Assembly (NCBI RefSeq): GCF_016917355.1
Contig: NZ_CP070304.1
Coordinates: forward strand, 3,596,001-3,660,000
Reading direction: 5' to 3'
DNA length: 64,000 nucleotides
Source of the DNA: Glaciimonas sp. PAMC28666
GTDB taxonomy: Bacteria; Pseudomonadota; Gammaproteobacteria; Burkholderiales; Burkholderiaceae_D
A model generated the notes under the pieces. The model was not told the DNA's origin. It did no database searches and saw nothing but the letters and a program-made list of their open reading frames with translations. Both the position numbers and the translations under genes were made by a program. Below, piece by piece: positions 48,160-50,031 of the stretch. Each line of letters starts with the position of its first letter. Positions within the stretch are counted from its first letter, which is position 1.

Positions 48160-49176
48160 ATGAAAGTTTTTTACGACAAAGACGCTGACCTTTCACTCAT
48201 CAAAGGCAAAAACGTTACGATCATCGGCTACGGTTCACAAGGCCATGCGCACGCGCAAAACCTGAATGATTCAGGCGTTAAAGTGACGGTCGGTCTGCGC
48301 AAAGGTGGCGCATCGTGGGACAAAGCGGTGAACGCTGGTCTGAAAGTTGCTGAAGTCAATGAAGCGGTCAAAGCTGCAGACGTCATCATGATTCTTTTAC
48401 CAGATGAAAATATCGCGCAAGTGTACGCAGAAAACGTGGCGCCGCACGCCAAGCAAGGCGCCACATTGGCCTTTGCACACGGTTTTAACGTGCATTACGG
48501 TCAGGTAACGCCACGCGCCGATCTGGACGTGATCATGATCGCGCCAAAAGCACCAGGCCACACTGTGCGCCAGACCTACACCCAGGGAGGCGGTGTTCCG
48601 CACCTGATCGCAATCCATCAAGACAAATCCGGCACTGCGCGTGACATCGCGCTGTCGTATGCAACCGCCAACGGCGGCGGTCGCGCCGGTATCATCGAAA
48701 CCAACTTCCGCGAAGAAACTGAAACAGATTTATTCGGTGAACAAGCCGTTTTATGCGGTGGTGCAGTTGAGTTGATCAAAGCGGGATTTGAGACATTGGT
48801 TGAAGCCGGTTATGCACCAGAAATGGCCTATTTCGAATGTCTGCACGAATTGAAACTGATCGTTGATCTGATCTATGAAGGCGGCATCGCCAACATGAAC
48901 TACTCGATTTCGAACAACGCAGAATACGGCGAATATGTATCGGGTCCGCGCATCGTCAACGAAGAAACAAAAAATGCCATGCGTGCGATTCTGAAAGACA
49001 TTCAAACCGGCGAATACGCGAAAAGCTTCATCCTGGAAAACAAGGCTGGCGCGCCAACATTGATCTCTCGTCGTCGTCTGAATGCAGAGCACCAGATTGA
49101 AGTTGTGGGTGAAAAACTGCGCGGCATGATGCCATGGATCAAAAAGAACGCAATGGTTGACCAAACCAAGAACTAA
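48160..49176 (+). CDS. ilvC: Ketol-acid reductoisomerase (NADP+)
   Basis: Converts acetolactate or acetohydroxybutyrate to the dihydroxy acids, using NADPH and Mg2+. The start at 48160 gives 338 residues (class I, short form) beginning [19 protein letters not shown]. The cofactor loop is [18 protein letters not shown], followed by VGLRKGG. Metal ligands lie in [14 protein letters not shown] and [17 protein letters not shown]. The last 14 codons ([13 protein letters not shown] plus stop, 49134-49176) and the following terminator form the first unit of a tandem array that repeats the 3' end six times. Confidence 0.98.
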
Positions 49177-50031
49177 GAATTTATTTAGTAATGGAAAAGT
49201 AAGGCATCATTGCAGGAATCGCTTGCAAGCGATCCCCGCGTGAAACCGAAAAGCTGTGCACACGCACAGCTTTTTTTCGGTTTCACGTGCACATGGATCA
49301 AAAAGAACGCAATGGTTGACCAAACCAAGAACTAAGAATCTATTTAGTAATGGAAAAGTAAGGCATCATTGCAGGGATCGCTTGCAAGCGATCCCCGCGT
49401 GAAACCGAAAAGCTGTGCACACGCACAGCTTTTTTTTCGGTTTCACGTGCACATGGATCAAAAAGAACGCAATGGTCGACCAAACTAAGAACTAAGAATT
49501 TATTTAGTAATGGAAAAGTAAGGCATCATTGCAGGAATCGCTTGCAAGCGATCCCCGCGTGAAACCGAAAAGCTGTGCACACGCACAGCTTTTTTTCGGT
49601 TTCACGTGCACATGGATCAAAAAGAACGCCATGGTTGACCAAACCAAGAACTAATAAGTATTTTAGTCCCTTATAAGGTCAGGCATCACTGCCGGAATCG
49701 CTTGCAAGCGATCCCCGCGTGAAACCGAAAAGCTGTGCATACGCACAGCTTTTTTTTCGGTTTCACGCGCACATGGATCAAAAAGAACGCCATGGTTGAC
49801 CAAACCAAGAACTAATAAGTATTTTAGTCCCTTATGAGGTCAGGCATCACTGCCGGAATCGCTTGCAAGCGATCCCCGCGTGAAACCGAAAAGCTGTGCA
49901 TACGCACAGCTTTTTTTTCGGTTTCACGCGCACATGGATCAAAAAGAACGCCATGGTTGACCAAACCAAGAACTAATAAGTATTTTAGTCCCTTATGAGG
50001 TCAGGCATCACTGCAGGTATCGCTTGCAAGC
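49134..50031. repeat. Tandem array of about 160-bp units carrying the ilvC 3' end and terminator
   Basis: Six copies of the last 43 bases of ilvC (ATGGATCAAAAAGAACGC...) start at 49134, 49293, 49453, 49612, 49773 and 49934, with a spacing of 159, 160, 159, 161 and 161 bases. Each unit runs: ilvC tail with stop codon, a short AT-rich spacer, a palindrome centred on CGCTTGCAAGCG, and a long terminator hairpin. Hairpins lie at 49239-49287, 49398-49447, 49558-49606, 49718-49767 and 49879-49928. The sixth unit breaks off after the palindrome region. Units 1-3 and 4-6 differ in the spacer (TTTATTTAGTAATGG versus AGTATTTTAGTCCCTT). Not a CRISPR: there are no unique spacers. Confidence 0.97.
49239..49287 (+). 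terminator. ilvC terminator (first of five near-identical hairpins)
   Basis: CGTGAAACCGAAA-AGCTGTGC pairs with GCACAGCT-TTTTTTCGGTTTCACG around an ACAC loop. The T run lies inside the descending arm. Four further copies follow within the tandem array. Confidence 0.88.

Follow-up and report, generated by a model that had tools for sequence, protein, structure and literature searches.

In Glaciimonas sp. PAMC28666, ilvC is followed by a tandem array of units that combine a copy of the last 14 codons of the gene with a block of two hairpins. Because such units recur at one spot of ilvC, and because a sister form is found at other gene ends, they look like small elements that spare their host gene. 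We lean, if only slightly, towards reading the unit as a noncoding insertion cassette of about 150 to 160 bp that brings along a replacement for whichever gene end it enters. Our confidence was lowered a little by the vertical clustering of hairpin types and by the weak fit of the unit's putative guide at hprK and the transfer-messenger RNA (tmRNA) gene. According to this reading, a target X/Y, in which Y is the rest of the gene, would become X/(Y, spacer, rc(X), hairpin 1, hairpin 2, end of X)/Y, where rc(X) is the reverse complement of X; at ilvC, X would be ATGATGCC and Y the last 14 codons. The unit would arrive as a block, and each arrival would give ilvC a fresh working tail while pushing the older tail and its terminator downstream as a relic. 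Copy number would then rise and fall by recombination between tails, which we infer to be what sets it, and distal copies would decay. Movement within a genus would require no more than homologous recombination in the tail and the body of the gene; guide-matched single-strand joining would be a bolder option.

The array in Glaciimonas and its second locus

Coordinates given without a locus name refer to “the window”, the whole 64,000-nucleotide stretch of the genome that was analyzed, and all features of the array lie on the + strand. Tandem Repeats Finder reported a repeat at about 49133-50032 with a period of 161, 5.6 copies, and 95% matches, confirming the head-to-tail array of ilvC tails and hairpins that had been described from the letters alone. 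The ilvC gene, encoding ketol-acid reductoisomerase, is an open reading frame at 48160..49176 with the Pfam domains KARI_N and KARI_C, and its last 14 codons (49135-49176), which are part of this frame, form tail 1. X occupies the 8 bases preceding the insertion point (49126..49133, letters checked) and is separated from the TGG of tail 1 by a single codon base, A. Six tails, one of them the gene's own, run from TGG to TAA and start at 49135, 49294, 49454, 49613, 49774, and 49935, with spacings of 159, 160, 159, 161, and 161. They are accompanied by six hairpin blocks, five of them complete and one decayed. The five complete blocks each contain a terminator-like + strand hairpin, with stems starting at 49248, 49407, 49567, 49727, and 49888, and as in an array of intrinsic terminators the stem is followed by a T run in all five. 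Thus, tail positions and terminator scan agree with the predicted count of six coding tails and five hairpins. Over 48900-50400, the scan found 7 terminator-like sites on both strands, compared with a mean of 2.4 in shuffled sequence.

Unit 1 (49135..49293) consists of tail 1, a spacer of type A, an 8-base sequence that we named the guide, and two hairpins. The guide, GGCATCAT (49203..49210, letters checked), is the reverse complement of X. Hairpin 1 is a palindrome centered on TTGCAA (49212..49239), and hairpin 2 (49239..49287) has outer arms CGTGAAACCG and CGGTTTCACG around the terminator-like stem, with a T run. Two spacer types are present, with A in unit 1, unit 2 (49294..49453), and unit 3 (49454..49612), and B behind tails 4 to 6, that is, in unit 4 (49613..49773), unit 5 (49774..49934), and a truncated block that together with tail 6 spans 49935..50032 and retains GGCATCAC (50004-50011) and a palindrome core (50021-50032). 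A decayed remainder (50033..50160, repeat family D3) contains two tail-like scraps, at 50123-50139 and 50143-50159, which would be old tails. Further on, GGGACGCATTTGCGTTCC and a T run (50183..50206), recognized by eye and absent from the output of the terminator scan, are probably the older ilvC terminator, as they resemble by eye GGGACGCAAATGCGTCCCTTTTT behind the last tail of a related genome (G002). An open reading frame for an ion channel (50276..51178; Pfam Ion_trans) lies downstream. The unit of about 160 bp has no open reading frame of 100 amino acids of its own and so encodes no integrase, and an Rfam scan of 48900-50400 returned 13 matches up to an E value of 1, none of which reached the gathering score.

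The six tails differ from one another at third codon positions only. Exchange between them therefore leaves the protein unchanged, as the original prediction had proposed.

Elsewhere in this genome the repeat unit was found in one further place, behind a second ilvC (L009 5221-6237). The protein encoded there is identical over 338 residues, and 23/1017 bases differ. A regulator of the sigma-54 type lies upstream, and by eye transporter-like genes lie downstream. The second array comprises two units and a partial third tail, with spacers in the order B A, compared with A A A B B B in the window. Both loci have both spacer types but not in the same order, so either the loci have exchanged whole or partial units or rearrangement has taken place within the loci. 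The ilvC paralogues undergo concerted evolution. The two copies are 97.7% alike in this genome and 98.6% alike in a second species (G001), with about 87% between the two species; in G001, the second copy by eye apparently adjoins a similar regulator.

An assembly artefact could produce arrays of this kind, and the contigs of two relatives (G001, G185) do end in or beside tails. However, the genome studied here is a single contig of 5.23 Mb that is 100% complete, arrays are also present in four single-contig relatives (G031, G116, G152, G207), and the units differ by point changes and occupy two loci. The presence of arrays in single-contig genomes, relatives included, makes an artefact unlikely, and together with the other observations we give it next to no weight.

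Other short tandem repeats were seen in the window. Two heptamers, TGCTTAA (5.7 copies, 39917-39956) and TGCTTAC (3.7 copies, 14147-14172), are located beyond or at the border of long reading frames, and a ten-base repeat, GTTGATTTGG (6.6 copies, 6511-6574), lies between such frames. A fifteen-base repeat (5 copies, 56440-56514) falls within an open frame of 532 codons on the minus strand and may therefore vary by five residues at a time.

Recurrence at one codon boundary of ilvC

We observed two ilvC tails lying 90 to 120 bases apart, with TAA or TAG as the stop of the first tail, in 34/392 genomes of the family and 10/44 genera; the required stop codons make this a lower bound, and in three genomes (G107, G131, G264) the unit follows a tail that ends in TGA. 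When the gap was changed slightly and 399 genomes from across the order were searched, 6 matched, 4 of them from two other families; this gap range excludes the longer spacer of the window, whose own genome (G000) scores 0 there. The order of parts is common to 41 loci with 54 units, one of which loci (L033) has a single intact tail: tail, stop, spacer, GGCATCAT, palindrome, long hairpin, TGCC or a near form, and next tail (parts of L171-L175 were read via alignment A4). Across genera and families, the insertion site is the same codon boundary of ilvC. The private local amplification that had been proposed does not account for this recurrence.

Among the matches listed, the nearest named relatives of ilvC, at 91%, come from Noviherbaspirillum and Undibacterium. 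When named loci were tested for a second tail without gaps, 2 of the 76 testable loci (of 80) had one (L033, L070), and another (L071) was present among the four loci outside that test. The motif GGCATCA follows soon after the stop in 23 of 82 parsed loci, 128 being the full set.

To describe the variation among relatives, we use the term T-type for units whose hairpin 2 has a U-tract and G-type for those in which it has none. A model of the T-type, scanned against 245 family genomes, matched at least 92 genomes at an E value of 0.01, and all inspected matches above 41 bits lie behind an ilvC-type tail. This was the position of 30/30 best T-type loci and 12/20 further ones; the remaining 8 had scores between 30 and 40.7 bits. 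Stricter filters were applied in the T-type and G-type scans. A search of plasmids gave no match, and among viral carriers the exact core of the sister form had 0 matches, while none of 18 loose pattern matches fitted model R1 at an E value of 0.001. The original prediction had set local duplication against a mobile repeat scattered over unrelated loci. The genome studied here has the unit at its two ilvC genes only, and the inspected matches of its type above 41 bits in relatives likewise show no such scatter. Other genes do, however, have units of a sister type whose two-hairpin core is similar, which bears out the second alternative in part.

Neighboring tails differ nearly exclusively at synonymous positions. 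Comparing each gene's own tail with the next one at 40 loci over six pattern-free codons, we counted 51 synonymous and 4 nonsynonymous changes where chance would give a synonymous share of 18%; the nominal p of 5e-33 is too small, as it treats related genomes as independent, and damaged tails are under-counted because a locus needed fairly intact tails to be entered. Over all codons and tail copies, there were 115 synonymous and 5 nonsynonymous changes. At one locus (L162), adjacent tails differ by up to 10 synonymous and 0 nonsynonymous changes. In genome G151 (L174), a tail ending in DQSKN precedes one ending in DQTKN, and both endings occur as the gene's own tail within the genus of G151 (L171, L173 and L175, L176). 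Every locus with at least two tails (40/40) has a complete ilvC tail ahead of the element, so that the gene end is restored. At the 30 best T-type loci, the second tail is intact in 22 and damaged or missing in 7, and the remaining locus (L222) starts inside the array. Near-synonymous divergence and the existence of damaged tails fit a history, read from the sequences, in which tails diverged while working in ilvC, came to adjoin one another, and decay once they are downstream.

Relatives without the unit indicate where it sits. At four loci of genus g28 (L119, L120, L122, L123), a single tail is soon followed by a GGACGGC...GCCGTCC hairpin, and neither GGCATCAT nor the unit hairpins are present. 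In unit-bearing congeners whose contig continues, a similar hairpin stands behind the last tail with no block there. As a hairpin of this kind follows the sole tail and the last tail, the block sits ahead of the resident tail.

These observations bear on a purely local origin, namely, that slippage or recombination, aided by the hairpins, duplicated the ilvC end in tandem and did so repeatedly in different species. Hairpins between direct repeats favor slippage, the units of a genome are often near-identical and species-specific, and the A and B units show recombination within the array. However, local events would not explain why GGCATCAT and the unit plan are common to genera and families, why the neighboring tails of L162 differ by synonymous changes only, or why similar cores are found at other genes, and the absence of a block behind the last tail in g28 is unlike simple doubling. 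We therefore consider local duplication rather improbable and retain the insertion cassette as the preferred reading.

On a tree of ilvC for 14 loci of one genus, 4 of them unit-less, presence and absence of the unit are scattered and require 3 changes, a number as low as that in 145/500 shuffles; L190 was dropped, and G063 was scored as unit-bearing though its contig ends inside the unit. Gain or loss of the unit is frequent. The hairpin type, on the other hand, clusters on the ilvC tree, with 3 changes compared with a shuffled mean of about 13 (0/500 shuffles as low); one locus without a gene body and identical bodies were dropped, and 4/49 rows had no type. Genus g1 adjoins g26 in the presence/absence tree but not in the hairpin-type tree, with weak support in both. 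With the type tracking the ilvC tree in this way, exchange across distant lineages seems to be rare, and vertical descent could explain much of the pattern; inheritance of the hairpin type looks mostly vertical.

Folding of the units and complementarity of the guide

The alignments of 24 T-type and 17 G-type units were folded separately (L178 and L192 were put in the T set by eye, against the script rule) and gave one shared fold in which GGCA pairs with TGCC at the unit end, enclosing the two hairpins. By eye in the alignments and loci, unit ends are GGCA/TGCC or GGAC/GTCC-like. Pair-keeping changes on both sides were found in 16/25 and 17/32 pairs of the two alignments, and both hairpins covary. 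In unit 1 of the window, the folding z score is -6.5 relative to shuffles, and GGCAUCAU pairs back with AUGAUGCC across the tail.

A structured RNA at the 3' end of ilvC, selected for termination, 3'-end protection, or a switch, with tandem copies serving dosage or arising as a by-product, would account for this strong covariation, for the fold of unit 1, for the terminator-like hairpin of the window's type, and for the inheritance of type mostly along the ilvC tree. As a switch, GGCAUCAU would alternate between two pairing partners, AUGAUGCC within the coding end and UGCC where the unit ends. The compensatory changes, however, may reflect either selection or templated hairpin correction. Moreover, the unit is absent from the 4 scattered loci of the genus mentioned above, hairpin 2 of the G-type has no U-tract, sister units stand at the start of a ferredoxin gene, and an RNA role leaves the protein-coding state of the tail unexplained. 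We thus judge this explanation unlikely, if less so than local duplication, and continue with the insertion cassette.

The U-tract of T-type hairpin 2 means that it can also act as an intrinsic terminator, and transcription probably stops at such units. The original prediction saw in the serial terminators a means of insulating the ilv operon from the downstream gene. This role is not general: in G-type relatives hairpin 2 lacks the U-tract, and a separate terminator-like hairpin stands behind the last tail. Serial termination as the general purpose of the units is ruled out by the G-type, and in the genus of the window the serial terminators are a by-product, not a feature common to the units.

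ATGATGCC stands ahead of the insertion point in 41/41 ilvC loci, and GGCATCA, which complements bases ahead of that point, is present in 52/54 units (missing in L070 and L177). At the ferredoxin gene, the 8 bases ahead of the insertion point occur in three forms. We evaluated 13 units in 10 loci, obtained from 15 candidates (L296 has no second gene start, and L234, L237, L240, and L242 fall outside the gene pattern). The reverse complement of the local X was carried with 8 of 8 bases in 8/13 units and with 7 of 8 in 5/13, while shuffled guides reached 8 of 8 in 3/2700 trials and at least 7 in 95/2700. Two loci with different sequences, L259 (AATCGTCG) and L261 (AATCGTCT), each carry their own guide match. 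The last four bases of X recur at the end of the ferredoxin unit exactly in 8/13 and with one or two changes in 5/13. At hprK, the fit by eye is limited to about five bases. These matches suggest that rc(X) guides the unit.

Sister units at other genes and relation to known systems

A model of the G-type matched at least 105/245 genomes at an E value of 1e-4, with many sites outside ilvC. From these we assembled 62 stretches, 60 fetched and two taken from the T-type set. By protein motif, 8/62 have sister units at the start of a 4Fe-4S ferredoxin gene (Pfam). Here the gene start is duplicated, and the copies that were read have a purine-rich stretch in the spacer, which we take to be ribosome-binding-like. 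Direct repeats are present in 7/11 ferredoxin-type loci and absent in 2, and the other 2 gave no core by script. At L269 1608-1956, three tandem units of 107 bp repeat the end of the HPr kinase gene (hprK; Pfam) and have the sister core; the array lies ahead of what by eye is a rapZ-like gene, and its last tail differs by two synonymous changes. The layout seen at ilvC is thus found again where the ferredoxin gene starts and, in a less exact form, where hprK ends.

A tmRNA gene is present in the sister-form stretches at 7/14 loci of one set and 4/39 of another. Beside tmRNA genes, tandem units with the sister core measure 186 bp at L268 1601-2530, 214 bp at L264 1624-2248, and 157 bp at L270 1570-1906. 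A simple direct repeat of the ilvC or ferredoxin kind is not seen at tmRNA genes. Within the L264 array, ARAGORN predicts an additional tmRNA that is false. One genome (G239) has a further sister-type block at a second ilvC-like tail (L307). Many of the remaining sister-type copies are dispersed, and no long direct repeat was found at them. Rfam gave no match up to an E value of 0.05 for 8 sister-type loci.

More tentatively, these forms may together represent a new class of enzyme-less mobile cassettes, with a two-hairpin core, an 8-base guide matching a fixed site, and a carried rest of the gene, either a tail or a start codon with a ribosome-binding-like stretch, that keeps the host working. 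Guides and cargo fit ilvC, ferredoxin, hprK, and perhaps tmRNA. We regard this broader claim as possible but doubtful.

Repetitive extragenic palindrome (REP)-type palindromes moved by a Y1 (RAYT) transposase are a further candidate, because the hairpins have a short matching foot sequence, copies are dispersed in some genomes, and Y1 genes are present in 12/12 genomes tested. However, Y1 genes are also present in three genomes in which no unit was found (G003, G021, G029), and no core lies beside any of the six Y1 loci examined among the 20 Y1 matches listed for the 12 genomes. As far as the excerpted description goes, REP/BIME sequences resemble the ilvC unit in being short palindromes that form clusters and tandem units, with many copies in some genomes (PMC3733652). 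Unlike them, the ilvC unit carries gene sequence and has no linked Y1 gene. At the unit ends read by eye, no tetranucleotide tag of the GTAG or CGTC kind given in that excerpt was seen (PMC3733652). We find this origin very improbable and continue to favor the insertion cassette. YPAL/RU-2 of Yersinia, a mobile palindromic element of 168 bp, is likewise small and noncoding, and it is also comparable in the inverted repeats of its interior, its lack of TA ends, the 3-26 bp of target that it duplicates, and its targets in or beside dyad symmetry, as far as its excerpted account describes it (PMC2229807). In contrast to the element so described, the ilvC unit duplicates a functional gene end, occupies a fixed site in a conserved gene, and carries an 8-base complement of its target. 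Small palindromic mobile elements are the closest kinds, and the excerpts of their descriptions mention no gene end carried along and no guide that matches the target (PMC3733652, PMC2229807). Among the open-licence papers listed, titles and abstract openings contained no description of tandem ilvC tail/terminator units.

If the cassette reading is right, the unit would show, in a minimal and easily read form, how a site can be chosen through plain complementarity, and it would explain breaks or variation of ilvC regions in draft assemblies.

Elements of the IS200/IS605 group transpose as single strands by means of guide and cleavage sequences. The ilvC unit resembles them in that the sequence at the 5' foot of a hairpin matches the joining site, but it differs in its plain 8-base complementarity, the lack of a linked transposase, and the gene end inside the unit. 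Integrative elements enter the 3' ends of tRNA, tmRNA, or protein genes and restore them, and they share with the ilvC unit both insertion at a gene end and a replacement end carried by the element. Unlike them, the ilvC unit is about 150 bp long, has no integrase or other gene, and is tandem, and its sister form is also found at a gene start. An element that inserts into a conserved gene usually spares it by bringing an integrase-bearing module of a kilobase; in the present case, about 110 bp of hairpin sequence and a borrowed gene end seem to be enough to hold one and the same ilvC codon boundary across several genera and families.
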